10,618 bases of DNA from positions 1 to 10,618 of the forward strand of contig JAEOTU010000202.1 of assembly GCA_016839665.1 (NCBI GenBank). The letters are read 5' to 3'. Made by a program: the position numbers and the translations under genes. Of the stretch, positions 402 through 10,590 are shown one piece after another. Numbering within the stretch: position 1 is the stretch's first letter; each line of letters begins with the position of its first letter. This DNA comes from Candidatus Hodarchaeota archaeon (GTDB lineage: Archaea > Asgardarchaeota > Heimdallarchaeia > Hodarchaeales > Hodarchaeaceae). Below the pieces are notes generated by a model. That model was not told the DNA's origin. It searched no databases and saw only the letters and a list, made by a program, of their open reading frames with translations.

Positions 402-1823
402 CTAATCTGTAAAATCTATTATTTTCGCTTCCAACTTATTTTGGAATTTGGATAGTAGTTCTGCTGCTTGTGTTTCGGTTTCTGCTTCTACCGTGATACG
501 TATTTTTGGCCCTGTATTACTAGCACGAATTAATACCCAAGACTCTTTTCCAATTGGTACACCAATCCCATCGATAGGGTTGATATTATCGTATTCCGAT
601 CTTAGAGTGTTTAACAATTCAGATATAACTTGAAATTTGACTTTATCAGGGCAAGCTACTGCAAGTCTTCGTTTATTCAAGCGTGGGAGGCCATCCACTA
701 TTTCAGATAGAGGTTGATCTTGCCGCGAAAGAATCTCGGCGAGTTTTAAGGGGATTATCATTGCATCATCAAAAAGGTAAACAGTGGGAAAAACCATATG
801 GCCACTAGATTCAATCCCAATTAATGTGTCAGTTTTACTCTGTGCATCAGCAGTGAGAAACGTATGACCTACTTTAATACGGTCAACAATGATAGGTGGT
901 GAGAGAACCTTTTCTAGAGCTAGAGAACATTCAACATTAGCTATTACACGGTTTAAGTCAGGAAATTCATCCATCATAAATTTTGCTAAAATTAGTCCTG
1001 TAGTATCTGCTAAAAGAACACGCCCAGTATTGTCTACAATAACTGCCCGATCACCATCGCCGTCAAAACCAACACCAAAATCGGCATTTTCAGATTTAAC
1101 CTTACCTGCAAGAAATTTCAGTGATTTTTGATTTGGTTCCGAGCTTCGATTTGGAAAAGTGGGGTCAACTTTACAGAAAAGGGGAATTACAGTTAATCCC
1201 ATGCCACGAAGAATCGTGGGAGCTGATAAACACGAAGCGCCATTACCACAATCAAGAACAACTTTCAATTTTCGCTTTAAAGGAAATTTTGACGACAAAA
1301 AGTCTTCATATTTCTCCTTACGATTAGCAATCTCCATTTGGCCAACTTTGTCCCACCTTGGTGTTAGAAACTGTCCCTCAATAAAAATGTCACGAATCCT
1401 CATGTTATCTTCTTCTGAGAAACCTACACCAGAACCGTAATAGAACTTCACACCATTCCATTCTGGTGGTAGATGAGAAGCAGTGATAAAGGCTGTTGCA
1501 AATGCTTGGTCTTGCCAAGCTGAAAACATGCAAGCGCCAAATTGTAATGGTTCTCCTGAAAATACAATGTTAATTCCAGTAGCCATGACCCCCGCAGCAA
1601 AAGCTTGAGCCAATAAAGAACTAGTCTGTCGAATATCAAAAGAAATGAAAACAAAATTGTCTTGTAAACCTTTTTCGAGTTGCAAAAAAGTTCCATAAGC
1701 AAGACCGATTCGGAAAAGGTTTTGCGGAGTAATTTCTTCTCCAAATATCCCCCTGATATCATATGCTCTGAAGATATGGATTAAGTCGTTGTAACTTTTA
1801 GAATCAACCAAATTTGACACCAT
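402..1823 (-). CDS. Phosphomannomutase/phosphoglucomutase (alpha-D-phosphohexomutase family)
   Basis: The 473-residue protein is full length for the four-domain phosphohexomutase family, which interconverts hexose 1- and 6-phosphates for sugar-nucleotide synthesis in the cytoplasm. Motifs counted from ATG 1823: FRAYDIRG at 18-25; the phosphoserine loop TASHLPPEWNG with Ser116; the metal loop DGDGDR at 254-259; the sugar-binding loop ESSGH at 338-342; and the phosphate-binding loop RASNTGP at 433-439. All catalytic elements are present. One oddity is Leu118 where TASHNP is the common form. A TTG at 1826 could extend the protein by one residue, but ATG 1823 is the simpler start, preceded by a weak AGAGAT. 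It lies 8 bases after the profilin-like stop, so the pair is probably one transcript. Whether mannose, glucose or glucosamine phosphate is preferred cannot be read from sequence. The family call is firm and the substrate is not. Confidence 0.93.
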   Translation of the reverse strand: MVSNLVDSKSYNDLIHIFRAYDIRGIFGEEITPQNLFRIGLAYGTFLQLEKGLQDNFVFISFDIRQTSSLLAQAFAAGVMATGINIVFSGEPLQFGACMFSAWQDQAFATAFITASHLPPEWNGVKFYYGSGVGFSEEDNMRIRDIFIEGQFLTPRWDKVGQMEIANRKEKYEDFLSSKFPLKRKLKVVLDCGNGASCLSAPTILRGMGLTVIPLFCKVDPTFPNRSSEPNQKSLKFLAGKVKSENADFGVGFDGDGDRAVIVDNTGRVLLADTTGLILAKFMMDEFPDLNRVIANVECSLALEKVLSPPIIVDRIKVGHTFLTADAQSKTDTLIGIESSGHMVFPTVYLFDDAMIIPLKLAEILSRQDQPLSEIVDGLPRLNKRRLAVACPDKVKFQVISELLNTLRSEYDNINPIDGIGVPIGKESWVLIRASNTGPKIRITVEAETETQAAELLSKFQNKLEAKIIDFTD

Positions 1824-1831
1824 CAATCTCT

Positions 1832-2203
1832 TTATCCAAAGAGAGCAGTCATCTTAGCGATTTCTTTCTGTATTTCAATAGGTTCATCATCTTTCAAATA
1901 ACAAAGAAAAAAATACTTATTCTTAGTTACCTGTAGAACCAGAGAACCGTGCCCCTCTGGGTTAGTTAAGCACCAATAGTCTGGGTAAGCGTTGAGGATC
2001 GAATTGTACTCTACTCCGGCAACACGAATGGATGGAGGGTATGTAACCCATTCATAGATAAGGTAGTAACCGTCAAGAAGGGCTCCATTGACCTGAGGGA
2101 ATGCACCAGTATGCCACCAGGTATTTCCGTAAGGATCTAGGATCACACAGCCAGATATAATATATTTATCCATGAGCTCCTGTAGAATCTTCCGGTAAGG
2201 CAT
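1832..2203 (-). CDS. Profilin-like protein (Asgard-type actin regulator)
   Basis: The protein has 123 residues, the usual profilin size. The order of elements matches profilin end to end: an N-terminal amphipathic helix (2-14); a strand and turn GCVILDPYGNTWW (18-30), equivalent to the eukaryotic AaIvg-x-dG-x-vWA segment; a helix around 40-53; the strand pair IRVAGVEYNSIL (59-70), equivalent to g-l-x-G-x-K-Y; a turn PEGHGSLVLQVTKNKYFFLCYL (82-103 region), equivalent to G-x-G-(i/v)-x-(i/v)-x-K-T-x-x-x-(l/i)-(v/i); and a C-terminal helix (107-121). Profilins bind actin monomers. Trp3 of eukaryotic profilins is replaced by Tyr3, so proline-rich ligand binding may be weak or different. The start is ATG 2203 rather than the upstream in-frame GTG at 2212, because that GTG is part of the Shine-Dalgarno sequence. 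Similarity was judged by eye; a roadblock or other small alpha/beta protein is the main alternative. Confidence 0.72.
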   Translation of the reverse strand: MPYRKILQELMDKYIISGCVILDPYGNTWWHTGAFPQVNGALLDGYYLIYEWVTYPPSIRVAGVEYNSILNAYPDYWCLTNPEGHGSLVLQVTKNKYFFLCYLKDDEPIEIQKEIAKMTALFG

Positions 2204-2290: not shown

Positions 2291-2749
2291 TTGATGCCAC
2301 ATATCCATCTTCTGTTGGGAATTGCTAGTGCTAATATCTTCTGTTCCTGGGGTGTTAATTCTTCTAGCTTGTTGTGGTTTATTCTTGGATCAGTCATTCC
2401 TGATATAGACTACTTTTTAAATTTATTTATAAAGAAAAATAGTCATAGGCAGTTATTTACCCATTATCCACTTTTGTATCTAGTTGCAGCAGTCTTTCTA
2501 GGTTTCTGGGGGTCGATACCCTCTGTTTGGGTCTGTTTTGGTGCTCTTGTTCATCTTCTCATAGATATTATTGATTGGGAAATGTATCTATTAGCACCTT
2601 TTTCAAACAGATCTTTTTCATTTCTCAATCTAGATTATGCAAAGGGGAAATCTCTTTTTAGTAATCTCAAAGATTATTATAAAAATCGAAACATTAAGAT
2701 TTTGGAATTAATGTCTCTGCTGATTTTTGGATTATCCTTCTTCATATAA
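2291..2749 (+). CDS. YdjM/DUF457-type membrane-bound metal-dependent hydrolase
   Basis: This is a small integral membrane protein of 152 residues. Its motifs are those of the YdjM (DUF457) family: His4/His6 in the first hydrophobic segment, GSVIPDID at 33-40, HRQLFTH at 52-58, and HLLID at 88-92 with another Asp at 95. The paired Asp and His residues at membrane edges are the family's presumed metal ligands. Hydrophobic segments lie at about 5-20, 27-47, 60-93 and 138-152. The family is annotated as membrane-bound metal-dependent hydrolases, but the substrate is generally unknown and I cannot infer it here. GGAGAT at 2276-2281 lies 9 bases before a TTG at 2291 and 12 before ATG 2294, so the start may be either. 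It is divergent from the profilin-like gene and 107 bases upstream of the zinc-ribbon gene, with no obvious functional link to either. Confidence 0.75.
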   Translation: MMPHIHLLLGIASANIFCSWGVNSSSLLWFILGSVIPDIDYFLNLFIKKNSHRQLFTHYPLLYLVAAVFLGFWGSIPSVWVCFGALVHLLIDIIDWEMYLLAPFSNRSFSFLNLDYAKGKSLFSNLKDYYKNRNIKILELMSLLIFGLSFFI

Positions 2750-2856: not shown

Positions 2857-4170
2857 ATGCATCTTCTCAAATGTCCCCACTGTGGTGAAATGGTTCCCTC
2901 CACTAAATTCTGCATTAAATGTGGAAAGGAACTGGAAGTAGTTTCTTCAGGAGCCTCAGAACACCAACAATTGATTACATGCCGTCATTGCGGGAAAAAT
3001 ATTCCTGAAAGCAAATGGTGCATTTTTTGTGGAAAAAGTCTGGAAAAAATTCCTCTTCAGGAACTTCCTCAGACTTTAGAAATGGTTGAATGTCCTTTAT
3101 GTCGCAACGAAGTCCCCTCAAGTCACAATTTTTGCCATCTCTGTGGGGGTAAATTGAAAAAGATTATTGTTAATGACCAAGAACAAAGTGTGTTATGCAC
3201 CCGGTGCTGGAAGCCTAATCCCCCTGATACTGGATATTGTATTCATTGTGGATTACAACGACAAGTGAAAAAGTCTATTTTCCTCGAGAAACCTTTTGAA
3301 GGATACCAACTTTCTCTCTCGCAATTTTTTCAACCCTCCATGCTTCCCCTAAGTACATTAAAATTTAGCTTAACCTCCTCTAAAAAATTTCCCAATAGAG
3401 TTACTATATCTCATTCTAAATTTTTTGGGGTCACTAAATCACGAAAGGGGTCGGTTCTATTTCGGAATTTTGGTGGGTTTGATGGAAATAATTTATTAAA
3501 TTATCTGGGGTCTTTTATTCTGATTTTTCTAATTTACCTTTTTTGGTTTTCAGGCCGTTATTCTACTCTTGTTGAAAATTTCGATCCAGTAACTGATGGA
3601 ATTCTAACGTCTCTTTTTGGAGGGATATTATTAACTGCTTTGCTAATGTTTCCAATTTGGCTTTCTACATTAATGGTATATCGAAATACAGGTTACAGGT
3701 TAAATTATAAAATAGATTCTTCTCGAGTTTTCATAACGGTAATTTTCAATGTCATTTGGCTTTTTGTAGGTTTTGGTCCAATCCTCCTTCAAATAGGCGA
3801 TTTTAAAAATCCACGCGAACGCTTTATTGTGCAGAAATCATTTATAAGGGGTATTGTATGGGGAACTGTATTTACTGTTTGTTGTACTCTATTGTTGGCA
3901 CTTTTAAGTATAGCTACTGTTGGATTTCCAGGTGTCTTTAGTGGGTTTCTTTTTCAGAATCATCCTATCAAAGGTCATCTCTTAGCTAGCTATTTTGGTG
4001 CTACTTGGATCTCTTTAGTTCTTATTCTTCCATTTGGTGATTATTTTGATAAAGTTATTAAGCATTGGAGCCAATTGGGGTATTTTGCGTTACTAGCCAT
4101 TGGTTTCCTTTTACTCACTCACTCTTTTAATTTAATGGGATTACTTTACCAATTAACTTATCGGGCCTAG
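2857..4170 (+). CDS. Four-zinc-ribbon multi-pass membrane protein, possible inactive site-2 protease (M50-like)
   Basis: The 437-residue protein begins with four CxxC-(9 or 10)-CxxC zinc ribbons, with cysteines at 6/9/19/22, 42/45/55/58, 79/82/93/96 and 114/117/128/131. A polar linker follows (133-210), then about six hydrophobic segments: 215-233, 249-274, 291-313, 330-355, 375-393 and 407-433. The membrane part resembles archaeal M50 proteases in outline. The segment 267-279 sits where the HExxH helix would be but reads IWLSTLMVYRNTG, without His or Glu. FGP at 306-308 sits near the usual PG loop, and ILPFGDYFD at 390-398 recalls the LDG motif. If this alignment holds, it is a pseudoprotease with cytoplasmic zinc ribbons. 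The ribbons are certain; the M50 link is my inference by eye. AGGA at 2841-2844 is distant, so ribosome binding is weak. An ATG at 2850 is in another frame and soon stops. Confidence 0.8.
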   Translation: MHLLKCPHCGEMVPSTKFCIKCGKELEVVSSGASEHQQLITCRHCGKNIPESKWCIFCGKSLEKIPLQELPQTLEMVECPLCRNEVPSSHNFCHLCGGKLKKIIVNDQEQSVLCTRCWKPNPPDTGYCIHCGLQRQVKKSIFLEKPFEGYQLSLSQFFQPSMLPLSTLKFSLTSSKKFPNRVTISHSKFFGVTKSRKGSVLFRNFGGFDGNNLLNYLGSFILIFLIYLFWFSGRYSTLVENFDPVTDGILTSLFGGILLTALLMFPIWLSTLMVYRNTGYRLNYKIDSSRVFITVIFNVIWLFVGFGPILLQIGDFKNPRERFIVQKSFIRGIVWGTVFTVCCTLLLALLSIATVGFPGVFSGFLFQNHPIKGHLLASYFGATWISLVLILPFGDYFDKVIKHWSQLGYFALLAIGFLLLTHSFNLMGLLYQLTYRA

Positions 4171-4256: not shown

Positions 4257-5267
4257 ATGCACGAAGATGCAATAAAGGTTTCAGTAGTCGGAACAGGTAA
4301 GATGGGCCTCTATCATGCTCGTTTATTATCACGACTCGGGCATTTAGACTCAATAGTTGATACAAATATCAAAACAGCGAAATCTGTCGGACAACAATTT
4401 GGGGTACCTTATTTTCCAAGTGTAGAAGCGATGTCGGAAGAGCGATCTCCAAATGGCGTTATTATAGCTGTTCCTACTGATGCTCACCCCAGTGTCGCAG
4501 TTGAAGTGATACAGTGTATTCCAGGATTAAAGGCCATGTTAATTGAGAAACCAGTTGCTCCTTCGGTGAAACAAGCAATCGACTTGAAGTCAAAACTAGC
4601 TAAGTTTGATGTGAAGGTTATTATAGGTCATATAGAAGTTTTTAATCCTGTTGTTTCACGTATACGCGAAATTCTGAATCAAAAAACTCTAATAGGTGAT
4701 CTACGCTCTGTTCTGTTTCAGCGACGAGGTGCTGTAGCAGAAACTAGAATCGGATCAGTTGGAGATGTTTATGCGGACATAGGAGTTCACGATTTCGATA
4801 TAGCTTTAAGATTATTCATGAATGGAAAATTAGAATTGTATTCTACTGCTGTAAAACTGAATAAAGTAGATAATTCAAGTATAATAATCATCTCCTCTGA
4901 AGATAAGAAATTTTTCACTACGTTTATCATGAGTAGAGAATATGCTGGAAAACTACGAACTATTGATATTGAAGGAACAAAAGCAACTCTCTGTGCAAAT
5001 ATGCTGACACAAATTTTAGAATTGCGTAGCTTGGAAATTGCACGTGGAGAGAAAGATATTTCAGCCATTCGAATACCTTTTTCGAATGGGGAGCAAGTTA
5101 AAGTCTATGGTGAACCTCTCCTTCTGGAAATGTGGAATTTTGTGGATTGTATTTTAGGAAGATCTATCCCTCTTGTGTCAGTAGATGATGGAGTAGACGT
5201 GCTAAAAATAGTGGAAGCCACACGAAAAAGCATTAAAACAGGGTCAGTTGTACCTTTACAAATTTAA
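4257..5267 (+). CDS. Gfo/Idh/MocA family oxidoreductase, UDP-GlcNAc 3-dehydrogenase-like
   Basis: The 336-residue cytosolic protein is full length for the family. An N-terminal Rossmann domain carries VVGTGKMG (10-17) and ends its second strand with Asp35, pointing to NAD preference. IEKP at 96-99 is the hallmark loop with catalytic Lys98. GHIEVFNP at 124-131 and DIGVHDFD at 174-181, with His178 and Asp174, are the C-terminal substrate-site motifs. These closely recall UDP-N-acetylglucosamine 3-dehydrogenases, which oxidise the sugar C3 hydroxyl on the way to diaminated sugars for glycans or lipids. In those enzymes the first motif is usually GHxERFNP; here Arg is Val128, so the substrate could differ. 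It lies 86 bases after the zinc-ribbon gene with its own ribosome site. No aminotransferase or glycosyltransferase partner is in the window, so the pathway role is inferred from family alone. Confidence 0.85.
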   Translation: MHEDAIKVSVVGTGKMGLYHARLLSRLGHLDSIVDTNIKTAKSVGQQFGVPYFPSVEAMSEERSPNGVIIAVPTDAHPSVAVEVIQCIPGLKAMLIEKPVAPSVKQAIDLKSKLAKFDVKVIIGHIEVFNPVVSRIREILNQKTLIGDLRSVLFQRRGAVAETRIGSVGDVYADIGVHDFDIALRLFMNGKLELYSTAVKLNKVDNSSIIIISSEDKKFFTTFIMSREYAGKLRTIDIEGTKATLCANMLTQILELRSLEIARGEKDISAIRIPFSNGEQVKVYGEPLLLEMWNFVDCILGRSIPLVSVDDGVDVLKIVEATRKSIKTGSVVPLQI

Positions 5268-5333: not shown

Positions 5334-7727
5334 TTATTCTGCTCGAACCTGCTCAATAATTAAAAACCAAGATGTAACTTTTAGCTTGATTTCATCGTAA
5401 ATTGGAAAAGGATAAAACCTTAAATGATTCTGATTTCCTTGATTGTCTACTAGTGTTGAATTAATAATATTTTCCCCGGTCGTTTTTTGATAGATTAAAT
5501 CTCGAAATTGGGTTGTTAATCCTGACTCTTGAAAAGGATGGAAACTAAGTATATTAATTGTTTTTAAATCTGATATATCTGTAAAACTCAATAATTGATG
5601 AGCACTCTTATTATATGCAATGACACGGCCCATATTATCAATCTTTAACCACCCTAACGGGAGATTTTCAACCAAAGTTTCGTATTCTTTAGTTACTTGT
5701 TTGAGATATTTCTTCATCCGTGTTTGTTCAGTGACGTCCGAAACTGTAACCACTGCTCCTGCAACCTTATTGTCTACTATAAGGGGAACAGAAGACACTG
5801 ATGCTTTTACTTCTTCTCCTTGAGCTGTCGTATAAGTCACTAGAAGATAATCATCACTTTTTTTGCCTCTCATCCTTTCCTGAGTTAGCTCTTTCACACG
5901 AGCATGTTCATAATCAGGAAAAAGATCAAAAATGCTTTTTCCGATAAGTTTATGTTTTTTATATCCGAGTATTTTCTTTAATCTAGGATTAGCTGATGTT
6001 ATTTTAAAATTTCGATCATAAGTGTATAATCCGTCTGTCATTGAGTCTATAATTGATTCAAGAAACTCTTTGGTTGTTTGGAGTTCTTTTTTGCGACGTA
6101 ATTCCTCAGTAACATCACGAATAAATCCATATGTCTCTATAAGATTTCCATTTCCATTTTTTATGGCAGCAGCAGTTACACGAGTTGAGATTTTTTTTCC
6201 TGAGCGGTGAACAAATTCCAAGGGGTAAGTATCCTCTATTGATTCTCCTTTTAACCGCCTTTGGGTTATTTCTTGTATTTTTTCAGCACCATTAGAGCTA
6301 GTAAAGTCAAGTACTGGAATTCCTATCATTTCGTGAGAGCTATAACCTAACAGTTGGGCTACACTATCATTCACATAGGTTGTCTTTTCTCCATCAATTG
6401 AAGTCACCCAAACCCCTATTGGAGTTTGTTCGATGAGGGATTGGAAACGTTTTGCGTACTCTTTAGTTTCCTGTTCAGCCATCTTTTTTGCTGTAATATC
6501 CCTCATTACTTTGGCAATACGATGACCTTTAGAGTGTTCTATGACGGATAAATTAGCTTCAAGAATACGGTTTGTACCGTCCTTAACATTCCTAATACGA
6601 TATTCTAAGAATTTAGGAATTTGAGGGATCCTGTCTTGAATGACAAAATCTTGGATCTTATCACGAATCCAGTAAAAATTCTCATGTTCATCGGAACTTA
6701 CATCATCATCTATTGGTTCCAGTTGACTCATTATATCCCAAATTGGTTTTCCCAAAGTATCCTCTGCAGAGAAGCCTGTTATAATGGTTGCAGCCGGGTT
6801 CCAATCCAAAATAATTCCTTCCTGATCCATGATAATTATTCCTTCGATTGACCCTTCAACAATTTTACGGTGCTTTTCTTCAGAATCAATCAGAGCTTGT
6901 TGGGTTTTTACCTGTTGTGTAAAATCTCGGGCGATTGCTTGAATTCCCGTAACAGTTTGAGTTTTTTTCCCATAAATTGGTCTTGCAGTAATGTCTAGGT
7001 GAAGAACTTGACCATTTTTTGTTTGAGAACGCAGTATCCGACTTTCTGTATTTCCATTACATATAGAATCAATCATTTCCTTCCATTTAACCAAATCATC
7101 TGGATAAGCAATATTCTCATACGTAAGTGTTTTGCTTTCTTCAAGACTAAATTCGTAAATAGACAAAAAATCTTTGTTTGTTTCTTGTAAACTTCCTTCT
7201 GAATCTAAAATAAAAATCAAACCAGCTGCGTTTTCAAATAAATCTTTGTAACGTCCCTCAGACTTCTGTAATTCCTGTTGGAGCCAATAGCGATCTATTG
7301 TTTGCCGAATGGAAGTTGCCATGAGGCTAAAGTATCCAGGTTGTACTCTTTTGATGAAGTATCCGCTTGCACCCAGTTGCAGTGCTTCAGAAGCTATCTC
7401 CTCGGATCCCTGGCCTGTGATAAAAATGACTGGTGTATCAATTTTCATTTCCCCAAACTTCCTCATTAAATGAATTCCGTCTGAGGGGAAAATTTTCCCT
7501 TTCACAGTTAAGGTACCAGGAAGTTTGTGATCACATAAGATACAATCAAATTTTTCAGCCTGAAGCTTTTCGATTGCTTCCTTGGCAGAGTAAGCAGGAG
7601 TTATTTGAAATCCAGGATCGACATCACTGAATTTCTTGATAATCAGACGAATAAACCACTCATCGTCATCAATCGCTAGGATTTTTGCTTCTTTTAGAGG
7701 TCTTGTGACATGAGGATGCGTTGTCAT
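5334..7727 (-). CDS. Receiver domain plus five PAS domains, sensory protein without kinase
   Basis: The 797-residue soluble protein starts with a complete CheY-like receiver (about 14-145): acidic pocket Asp20/Asp21, phospho-acceptor Asp66 in DHKLP, Thr104 and Lys126. It contains a loop insertion at 70-83. Five PAS modules follow at about 156-275, 283-415, 427-545, 555-672 and 680-797, shown by repeated NAA/NPR-type cores, GYSSHEMIG- and GYKKHKLIG-type turns, and connecting RDIT/RDVT/SDVT segments with short helical linkers. The protein ends inside the fifth PAS. There is no HisKA His box, HATPase ATP site, DNA-binding or cyclase domain, and no membrane segment. It would receive a phosphate and sense ligands or redox, then pass the signal by protein contact; this is inference. 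The start is ATG 7727: upstream ATGs are out of frame and no clear Shine-Dalgarno exists, so the leader is short. A TATA box and repeated sites lie upstream. Confidence 0.9.
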   Translation of the reverse strand: MTTHPHVTRPLKEAKILAIDDDEWFIRLIIKKFSDVDPGFQITPAYSAKEAIEKLQAEKFDCILCDHKLPGTLTVKGKIFPSDGIHLMRKFGEMKIDTPVIFITGQGSEEIASEALQLGASGYFIKRVQPGYFSLMATSIRQTIDRYWLQQELQKSEGRYKDLFENAAGLIFILDSEGSLQETNKDFLSIYEFSLEESKTLTYENIAYPDDLVKWKEMIDSICNGNTESRILRSQTKNGQVLHLDITARPIYGKKTQTVTGIQAIARDFTQQVKTQQALIDSEEKHRKIVEGSIEGIIIMDQEGIILDWNPAATIITGFSAEDTLGKPIWDIMSQLEPIDDDVSSDEHENFYWIRDKIQDFVIQDRIPQIPKFLEYRIRNVKDGTNRILEANLSVIEHSKGHRIAKVMRDITAKKMAEQETKEYAKRFQSLIEQTPIGVWVTSIDGEKTTYVNDSVAQLLGYSSHEMIGIPVLDFTSSNGAEKIQEITQRRLKGESIEDTYPLEFVHRSGKKISTRVTAAAIKNGNGNLIETYGFIRDVTEELRRKKELQTTKEFLESIIDSMTDGLYTYDRNFKITSANPRLKKILGYKKHKLIGKSIFDLFPDYEHARVKELTQERMRGKKSDDYLLVTYTTAQGEEVKASVSSVPLIVDNKVAGAVVTVSDVTEQTRMKKYLKQVTKEYETLVENLPLGWLKIDNMGRVIAYNKSAHQLLSFTDISDLKTINILSFHPFQESGLTTQFRDLIYQKTTGENIINSTLVDNQGNQNHLRFYPFPIYDEIKLKVTSWFLIIEQVRAE

Positions 7728-8082: not shown

Positions 8083-10590
8083 TTGTCATCATTTATAAAT
8101 CATTATAAAAGTGTTTTAGACGAGTTACAGGGGCATTTCCTTTGTAAAAACAAGAAAAATATCAAGATTTTCATTCGTAATTTGCTGAAACAGACAATTT
8201 TTCTAGCGTTTTATCTTAAAACTTCTTCTCAAAACCCCATATCAGAAAAAGATGAGGAACATTTTCTTGAATCTGACTATTTTTGGTCAGCTTTATACAA
8301 TTCATCCTCTATTAAGAGGGTTGTGAATGCTTTTTTCCCATTAGATTTAGAATTGTTTGGATCTTTGAAAAGGAATGAAAAAAGGAACATTACTTCTTGT
8401 TTAAATGATTTCACTGAATCTTATATATGGAACACGTCTCAGAATCGGCGTTTAGCAGATAATAAGGACGTTGTAACACCAGAAATCTTTGAAAAGATAT
8501 ACAGCCTAGAGAATCCAGAGAATGTGGGTGTTGTTGTTACACCTCCAATCTATGCGTACTGGATGGTAGAAAGGTGTTTTCAAAGACATTTATCGAGAAT
8601 TCTAGGAATAAAAAATTTCAACATTAAATTATGCAATTCTTTGAACCACAAGCAAATTAAACTTCTTTTAAGCTATATTTCACAAATTAGAGTGTTAGAT
8701 ATAGCTGTGGGCTGTGGGACATTTTATTTAGCATCTTTGAGGTACCTACAATCTTTGAAAAATGAAATCCATATAGATAAAGAAGATTCTTTCTCCTTTC
8801 TAATGAGAGTATTAAAGGAAAACCTATATGGGGTTGATGTCGATGAGAATGCCCTTCTTGTTTGTAAAATACGTTTAACTTTGCAACTATTAAGTGAGAA
8901 TCCGTTAATAGCAGCTGAAGAACTACTAGAAATCATCTCCAATGTCAACTTAAGAACTGGTAATTCTTTGATGGGATTTATTGAGAATCCAGATACAGTG
9001 GGATCATATGGAGGAGAAGATTACAATAAATTAATATTTCGCAATATCGAAGTAGAGGATATTCAAGATACGTCCTATAAACGTAAAGCTTTTCACTGGT
9101 TTCACGAATTTCCAGAGATTTTTGACAATGAAAAACCTGGGTTTGATATAGTAATCGGAAATCCTCCTTACATTGGATATCGTTTGATTTCACAAATAGA
9201 AAAGCGTTTGTTGAAATGCTTCTACCCTAGAATCTATACTGGATTAAATGATTATTATTACTACTTTATTTGGAGAGCTACGCAACTATTAGCTTCGAAT
9301 GGTAGCTGTACGTTAATTGTTCCCAGATATTTTTTAGAAGCTCGTTACGCTCGAAAGCTACGCTCCCAGCTTGAGAATCCTCATACTAGTTATATAGATA
9401 TAATCATTGATTTGCGGGAATTCAAGGTTTTTCCAAAAGGAATCAATACATTAATCCTTTTTTTAACAAAAGATAACAAATCTGATCAAGAAAAGAGAAT
9501 TCTAGTCTTGAAAAAGCATAGAATATCCTCACAGACTCTTCTACAAGAATTACAGATAAATTTGGATAATTCTTCACTAAAGCCAAGTCAGAATTTTCAC
9601 CAGTTCGTATTTAATAGTGATGAATTTGTAAATGGGAAAATTTTATCATCCTCAAGAACTTTAAGGAAAAAATTGAAGGTTATTGAAGAACAATGCGTCC
9701 CTTTAGGTCATCTTTGTGATGTAGGAACTGGATATCATTCTGGTAAGGATATGGTTTTTTCTCAAAATGTTATTGAGCAAAATAATCGATTTTTCGGAGA
9801 AATAAAATCCCAGAGTTCCATTACTCGTTATCCATTAGAAGCAGGAATAATCAAAGAAATTGTGAAAACACCAGATATTTTGTCTTTTACGATAAGATGG
9901 AATAATAAATATGTTATCTTAACTGAACGGGGTATAAAAATTGATGATTATCCATATATTAAAACTTACTTAGAACAATTTAAAGAAACTCTCCAAAATC
10001 GTTATGAAGTCAAGAAAAATTTATCTAAGTGGTATGAAATTGCTCAAGTTCGCAATCGACATCTCTTCAAAGCTAAAACCAAAATTATCTGTCCTTATCG
10101 CGCTCGTGTTCCAAGGTTTGCTATTGATGAGAAACAGCGTTTTAGTTCAATTGATTGTACTTCAATTGTACCAAAGAAAACTTGCTCCGTCGGCATCTAC
10201 TACATATTGGGTATTTTAAACTCTGAATTGATAGAATTTTACTTATATATAATTGCTAAGAAGCTTGATGCTCAAAAAATTGAGTTATACCCAAAAACTA
10301 TCAGTCAAATTCCGATAAAAATCGGAAATGGGACGGAAGAGTTTTCTTTGATTGAAAAAATATCACAGATCACCCAGAGCATATGTCAAAGAATGGACTC
10401 AATTGCTTTTGCTCCTTCTCAAAAGAACTTAATAATCAAAAGAGGAAAGAGAGCTTTAGAACAATTTGCGATAGACTTCAACGAAATTTATTCTGACATC
10501 AAGCAGCTTGATAAAATGGTTTATACTTTATATGGTTTTGAAGATCAGGTAGCCGAAATAAAAAGAGAAATCACCCTTCATCAAACCTGA
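8083..10590 (+). CDS. Type II/IIG-like N6-adenine DNA methyltransferase (Eco57I/TaqI family)
   Basis: The 835-residue protein transfers a methyl group from S-adenosylmethionine to adenine N6 in a specific DNA site. Parts in order: an N-terminal helical region (1-145) without a recognisable PD-(D/E)xK nuclease; VVVTPP at 150-155, the usual lead-in to the methylase domain; SAM motif I DIAVGCGTF at 206-214; YGVDVDENA at 249-257; catalytic motif IV NPPY at 360-363; a target-recognition domain beginning near VGTGYHSGKDMVF (547-559), the G-TG-D-VF pattern of TaqI-type specificity domains, with ICPYRARVP and GILNSELIEFYL further on; and a C-terminal LDKMVYTLYGF, common in type IIG enzymes. Motif I has Val209 and Cys211 in the loop but keeps the key Asp and glycines. 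The start is TTG with GAGG upstream. A stand-alone methylase, or one partnered by a downstream gene, is more likely than a fused restriction enzyme. Confidence 0.9.
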   Translation: MSSFINHYKSVLDELQGHFLCKNKKNIKIFIRNLLKQTIFLAFYLKTSSQNPISEKDEEHFLESDYFWSALYNSSSIKRVVNAFFPLDLELFGSLKRNEKRNITSCLNDFTESYIWNTSQNRRLADNKDVVTPEIFEKIYSLENPENVGVVVTPPIYAYWMVERCFQRHLSRILGIKNFNIKLCNSLNHKQIKLLLSYISQIRVLDIAVGCGTFYLASLRYLQSLKNEIHIDKEDSFSFLMRVLKENLYGVDVDENALLVCKIRLTLQLLSENPLIAAEELLEIISNVNLRTGNSLMGFIENPDTVGSYGGEDYNKLIFRNIEVEDIQDTSYKRKAFHWFHEFPEIFDNEKPGFDIVIGNPPYIGYRLISQIEKRLLKCFYPRIYTGLNDYYYYFIWRATQLLASNGSCTLIVPRYFLEARYARKLRSQLENPHTSYIDIIIDLREFKVFPKGINTLILFLTKDNKSDQEKRILVLKKHRISSQTLLQELQINLDNSSLKPSQNFHQFVFNSDEFVNGKILSSSRTLRKKLKVIEEQCVPLGHLCDVGTGYHSGKDMVFSQNVIEQNNRFFGEIKSQSSITRYPLEAGIIKEIVKTPDILSFTIRWNNKYVILTERGIKIDDYPYIKTYLEQFKETLQNRYEVKKNLSKWYEIAQVRNRHLFKAKTKIICPYRARVPRFAIDEKQRFSSIDCTSIVPKKTCSVGIYYILGILNSELIEFYLYIIAKKLDAQKIELYPKTISQIPIKIGNGTEEFSLIEKISQITQSICQRMDSIAFAPSQKNLIIKRGKRALEQFAIDFNEIYSDIKQLDKMVYTLYGFEDQVAEIKREITLHQT

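Follow-up and report, generated by a model that had tools for sequence, protein, structure and literature searches.

The 10,618-nucleotide stretch of DNA analysed here as a whole (the window; contig JAEOTU010000202.1 of the Candidatus Hodarchaeota archaeon assembly GCA_016839665.1) carries a short gene whose product, P0001, is identified from sequence, predicted fold and relatives as a real but hard-to-recognise profilin. Eukaryotes use profilins to control their actin filaments. On sequence comparison it belongs to a divergent profilin subfamily of Asgard archaea, designated W, that is separate from the heimProfilin orthologue group, whose members are called canonical below. The W-type gene probably encodes a small actin-binding profilin, which would be the second and neofunctionalised profilin of a Hodarchaeales-type Asgard archaeon. 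A preliminary description of this DNA had placed a profilin in an archaeal setting, which the sequence, the predicted fold and the relatives support, and had given correct coordinates with the strand unstated; invisible to it was that P0001 appears to be a second, divergent paralogue and not the known heimProfilin.

1832..2203, minus strand: coding sequence of the W-type profilin P0001 (123 amino acids), with the ATG start at 2203 and the stop at 1834-1832

Across 1832-2203 the plus strand is interrupted by stops, and the minus strand is open for 123 amino acids. An alternative GTG nine bases upstream of the ATG at 2203 would give a 126-residue product, and the ATG is preferred because the MPYR start is nearly invariant (at least 90% of 20 aligned sequences). 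The protein search returned 29 clusters including that of the window itself, the 28 others being 49-95% identical to P0001; none of the 29 carries a precomputed Pfam domain, and all seven that are named in their source are called 'hypothetical protein'. Between the window gene and a 95%-identical relative in genome G001 (L008), 34 of the 41 base differences fall at third codon positions, and the ratio of non-synonymous to synonymous substitution rates (dN/dS) from this one pair is 0.042 (NG86) or 0.064 (YN00), two further pairs having given no finite dS. The gene is under purifying selection.

The predicted elements of P0001 comprise an N-terminal helix (3-12), two strands (18-22 and 28-33), a second helix (45-52), five further strands (58-61, 64-71, 76-80, 87-92 and 98-103) and a C-terminal helix (108-119), and the predicted fold has the profilin arrangement, a sheet with both terminal helices lying on the same side. 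This order bears out the profilin plan previously read by eye, including the turn at 25-30, present as G26-N-T-W29-W30, and the strand pair near 59-70. In a phmmer search of the PDB sequences, P0001 matched heimProfilin (6yrr) at an E value of 1e-9 over residues 2-122, and Odin profilin at 0.043. A profile of the 29 W-family clusters (A2) matched heimProfilin at 1.2e-14, Thor profilin (7pbh) at 3e-4 and Odin profilin at 4.5e-3, and nine of the ten PDB sequences listed were profilins, six of these at E 0.8-1.2. Ranks 1-48 of the best 50 Foldseek matches to the predicted fold were likewise profilins. No match to P0001 was found in Pfam (E up to 1) or NCBIfam (E up to 0.1), nor with the eukaryotic profilin family PF00235 even at E 10. 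PF00235 matched only seven of the 29 W-family members, weakly (best E 2.2e-4), and all ten canonical rows, the best of which (E 2.2e-5) lies exactly at the 25-bit cut-off and another canonical copy, at 21.2, below it; judged by these scores, the model is at its limit for this group. Up to E 10, a profile of the ten canonical rows (A4) listed no PDB profilin from eukaryotes, and A2 listed some at E 0.8-1.2, matches too weak to say which subfamily lies nearer eukaryotes.

For the phylogeny, W was represented by 19 of the 33 W clusters among the matches listed (120 of 390 proteins) and by seven loci; both trees were built without two of the four Thor rows (P0048 and P0060), which had been spoiled by trimming, and with no eukaryotic rows. 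In the 54-row tree, W forms one clade (98/98) beside canonical Heimdall-type rows, with L025 as its sister (100/97) and a link to L026 that is not strong (82/84). When Loki rows, L025 and L029 were left out, W was recovered at 100/100 on a stem of 1.71 changes per column. We read W as the product of a probable duplication in the Heimdall lineage or close to it, after which the sequence changed fast and later froze. The locus L025 (genome G054, 1498-1890), the lone sister of W, is 33% identical to P0001, has no phosphohexomutase match in its locus and is a possible intermediate.

Relatives are encoded at seven loci in public genomes (L001-L007), all titled Hodarchaeota, Heimdallarchaeota or Hodarchaeum metagenome-assembled genomes, and the profilin of L001 (genome G001) is 95% identical to P0001. 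The organism labels in the protein search comprise three Hodarchaeales, one Thorarchaeota (P0006) and one Promethearchaeota (P0007); P0006 and P0007 are placed inside W beside the copy of genome G051, and the 'Thorarchaeota' label of P0006 may therefore be wrong, or W may reach further. W was found in nine of 227 genomes of the phylum (G001-G007, G051 and G052), a tally that, like the others from this search, is a lower bound, at most 19 candidates per genome having been scored and the canonical copy of G001 missed. A second profilin is present in six of the seven genomes (A2 matches of 3e-13 to 4e-15; 27-34% identity to P0001), and these second copies are regarded as counterparts of heimProfilin because A4 matches 6yrr at 6.4e-43. 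The A4 search covered 14 of the 20 genomes matching in the 227-genome search, leaving out those with weak hits (G064, G065, G066, G068, G085 and G099). It found a canonical copy in eight of the nine W genomes and none in the ninth, G006; the only profilin found in G048, G049 and G053 is canonical, in G054 L025 is joined by a canonical copy, and G045 has one other profilin.

The residues that set W apart were compared by aligning 26 W rows with 15 canonical ones, and three segments of the window gene stand out.

2093..2119, minus strand: codons 29-37 (WWHTGAFPQ), the end of strand 2 and the next loop; W30 aligns with heimProfilin Trp53, and H31, G33, F35 and P36 are W-specific
2078..2092, minus strand: codons 38-42, an insertion before helix 2 that is absent from all 15 canonical rows
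2048..2071, minus strand: codons 45-52 (GYYLIYEW), helix 2, with W-specific Tyr46 and shared Trp52

The insertion is of five residues, or six in seven of the 26 W rows. Thirteen positions are at least 90% conserved in W and absent in that form from the canonical rows (P2, R4, G18, H31, G33, F35, P36, Y46, V53, T54, W77, L79 and C101), and Trp59 of heimProfilin, found in all 15 canonical rows, is replaced by Pro36 in 24 of the 26 W rows. The poly-proline cradle positions Y3, W29, W30 and F122 are all present in P0001. At position 30 (Trp53 of heimProfilin) the W rows have Trp in 18, Tyr in four and His in four, and at position 122 (Phe147) Phe in 25 and Tyr in one; both heimProfilin residues contact poly-proline, and the reported binding values of heimProfilin for VASP poly-proline are 3.3 mM with the N-terminal extension in place and 0.30 mM once it is removed (PMC8410842). 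Tyr3 had been taken as a hint of altered proline-rich ligand binding. This argument was rejected because Tyr3 is invariant across all 41 rows, 26 from W and 15 canonical, including poly-proline-binding heimProfilin, where it is Tyr26; altered ligand binding itself may hold by way of the W-specific changes after the poly-proline Trp and the Trp/Tyr/His swap at that position. On the actin face, the mutation-tested G63, F95 and G104 of heimProfilin correspond to G45, W77 and G86, each in 26 of 26 W rows, the canonical rows at F95 having Leu (6), Phe (5), Tyr (3) or Cys (1). As for phosphoinositide binding, K110 and K146 of heimProfilin align with Val92 and Leu121 of P0001, and Lys occupies position 92 in 13 of the 26 W rows.

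Actin and gelsolin were sought in the genomes of the relatives, including the nearest, G001, where actin and gelsolin domains are present. Gelsolin was found in seven of seven related genomes versus none of 14 control genomes, and an actin family match in six of the seven; a conserved actin copy, 77-100% identical to that of G001, occurs in ten of 11 genomes of a partly overlapping set. The single miss in both sets is G002 (CP070760.1, titled 'chromosome'), which gave no actin family or actin protein match. CP070760.1 consists of pieces joined by N runs, at least ten of them in the 20 kb of L066, and a run of 100 N (L087, 14562-14661) immediately precedes the genes found after actin in G051. 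Actin loss in G002 was not accepted, since a gap at the expected place mimics loss, and we infer that its actin lies in the missing stretch. Separately, contig C66 of G049 carries two adjacent divergent actin-like genes, L060 and L061, with 39% and 33% identity to the conserved actin, of which G049 also has a copy.

Based on these comparisons, the W profilin would bind monomeric actin by the usual profilin face, formed by β4-β6 and the C-terminal helix, and could slow nucleation or feed monomers to barbed ends, while the remodelled β2-loop-helix 2 region next to the poly-proline site may engage a partner or regulator different from that of the canonical copy. The neighbouring genes are the following.

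402..1823, minus strand: phosphohexomutase (PMM/GlmM-like), ATG at 1823, directly downstream of the profilin gene; probable operon partner
2291..2749, plus strand: YdjM-type membrane protein, first of the divergently oriented genes in the conserved block
2857..4170, plus strand: zinc-ribbon (DZR) protein with a C-terminal part hydrophobic by eye; block member
4257..5267, plus strand: GFO/IDH/MocA oxidoreductase; block member
5334..7727, minus strand: response-regulator/multi-PAS protein; block member

Eight bases separate the profilin stop from the phosphohexomutase ATG in the window, and the pair lies on one strand at all nine other W loci with varying spacing, the junction sequence having been inspected in the window and eight of these nine; at L006 (G006) the called mutase open reading frame (ORF) begins about 300 bases further on. 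This placement suggests co-expression, and a functional link of the W profilin to sugar metabolism is unproven. The window mutase scores below the NCBIfam GlmM cut-off (352.7 versus 439) and resembles solved phospho-sugar mutases. The order PAS - GFO - DZR - YdjM - profilin - mutase is common to L001-L007 and G051, L006 and L007 being cut by contig ends; in G052 the profilin lies at a contig end and only the mutase side is visible. All seven complete genes of the window recur in L001, in unchanged order and 84-95% identical, and when L001 was compared with five loci, gene order continued on the mutase side in five of five and on the PAS side only in G051. Functional coupling read from synteny alone is thus weakened, the pair lying in a longer conserved block.

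Several observations weigh against or qualify this overall reading of the W profilin. The long stem of the subfamily is as expected after a change of function. The basic residue R98 of heimProfilin (Arg or Lys in 15 of 15 canonical rows), which we take to correspond to an Arg among the actin-binding residues of eukaryotic profilins, is lost in W (Thr in 13, Ser in six, Ile in four and Asn in one of the 26 rows), and H137, an actin contact by nuclear magnetic resonance, is Gln in 25 of 26 W rows and also in two of the 15 canonical rows; weaker or lost actin binding by W is therefore possible. Odin profilin likewise has Thr at the R98 site, yet was crystallised with rabbit actin according to its PDB title. 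Matches to the actin family are not confined to Asgards, the same search having hit six of the 14 control genomes, all bacteria, but the six related-genome matches exceed 430 bits across nearly the full model and the conserved copies are close to that of G001 (77-100% identity). Adjacency to the mutase, finally, is by itself weak evidence for shared function because synteny extends beyond the pair.

Weighed alongside actin binding was a neofunctionalised paralogue that keeps the profilin fold but has left actin for another partner (poly-proline or another peptide, or the neighbouring sugar enzyme), the canonical copy keeping the actin job; we consider this unlikely, if the strongest of the alternatives. 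In its favour, besides the stem and the loss at R98, are the W-specific residues from G18 to C101, the phosphohexomutase adjoining the profilin at nine of nine loci, and G048 and G049, canonical only, in which no close mutase (best 30-31%), GFO or DZR was found. The three mutation-tested actin-face residues are, however, kept in W, F95 as Trp, and G048 and G049 miss the whole block, a pattern that fits block loss or missing sequence, so that a single deletion or an absent contig accounts equally well for the co-absence; G045, G053 and G054 hold a 43-47% identical mutase whose short locus gave no profilin match, and the synteny is broader than the pair. Doubtful to a somewhat greater degree is a more elaborate proposal, namely a duplicated second profilin in the proposed eukaryote-sister lineage with a new ligand surface by the poly-proline site, co-expressed with a sugar-phosphate mutase and so an actin or former actin regulator tied to surface-glycan precursor synthesis.

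It is very improbable that P0001 is a plain heimProfilin orthologue, fast-evolving in its lineage: heimProfilin is its closest solved relative, but eight of the nine W genomes hold a separate canonical copy far closer to heimProfilin (profile E 6.4e-43 versus 1.2e-14), and W forms its own clade in both trees. Scarcely credible is a roadblock/longin-family protein merely resembling profilin, the fold that the preliminary description had named as its counter-case. Foldseek places Roadblock3 of MK-D1 at ranks 49-50, with template-modelling (TM) values of 0.59-0.62 that lie slightly under those of many profilin rows, but beneath 48 profilin rows and at E 1.6e-3 versus 2.4e-8 for Odin profilin; the sequence profiles list profilins and no roadblock, and the N- and C-terminal helices of P0001 are positioned as in profilin. 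A chance ORF, for which no point was found, is refuted to near certainty by the 28 homologous clusters, the third-position bias and the conserved position.

Further genes were observed around the block and around the canonical copies. At 8083-10590 the window encodes an 835-residue Eco57I/TaqI-type adenine methyltransferase, restriction-modification-like; beside the block, L001 (84%) and G051 (47%) hold a counterpart, and L002-L005 and L007 hold none so close. The minus strand of 1-160 holds the start of an open-ended ORF resembling, by eye, the N-terminus of an NADP/F420-type reductase, and a complete gene resembling it comes next after the mutase in L001 (12046-12744) and in four of the five loci compared. 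The canonical profilin of G048 lies beside myo-inositol-1-phosphate synthase, a UbiA prenyltransferase and a CTP_transf_1 protein by Pfam (L067, 3406-10149), and that of G005 is surrounded by the same gene order by eye (L068, 3228-9876). The inositol-synthase neighbourhood is of interest because heimProfilin without its extension binds a phosphoinositide (PMC8410842).

Asgard profilins are put to the test as stand-ins for a pre-eukaryotic actin system, and a sister relation of Hodarchaeales to eukaryotes is claimed in PMC10307638. That Asgard archaea can hold several profilins, with duplications, is already published (PMC8410842); judged by sequence, what appears new here is the W subfamily as such and its coexistence with a canonical copy. 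W is described in no title or abstract start among the literature matches listed, and the supplementary tree of 256 Asgard profilins in PMC8410842 may hold W members. If genomes of this proposed sister group have a pair of profilins of which one escapes Pfam and NCBIfam, hit-based or canonical-only inventories and phylogenies would undercount regulators, and paralogue pairs within single genomes would allow tests of profilin subfunctionalisation outside eukaryotes.

Among known systems, P0001 is most readily compared with heimProfilin of Heimdallarchaeota LC3 (PDB 6YRR; PMC8410842), with which it shares the predicted profilin fold, Tyr3 (Tyr26), the Trp30 position (Trp53), Phe122 (Phe147), and the actin-face Gly45, Gly86 and aromatic residue at 77 (Phe95). 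In contrast to heimProfilin, to which it is only about 31-34% identical, P0001 has no 23-residue N-terminal extension, a five- or six-residue insertion before helix 2, a shorter loop before the C-terminal helix and no basic residue in place of Arg98, and W is a separate clade coexisting with the canonical copy. Odin profilin (PDB 5ZZA, with rabbit actin) is 22% identical to P0001 and does not have most of the W-specific residues. Loki profilins 1 and 2 (PDB 5YED, 5YEE and 5ZZB) are 14-16% identical; Loki-labelled database rows, used in the tree in place of these PDB sequences, fall on another branch than W. The eukaryotic profilins of PF00235 are 8-17% identical to P0001.
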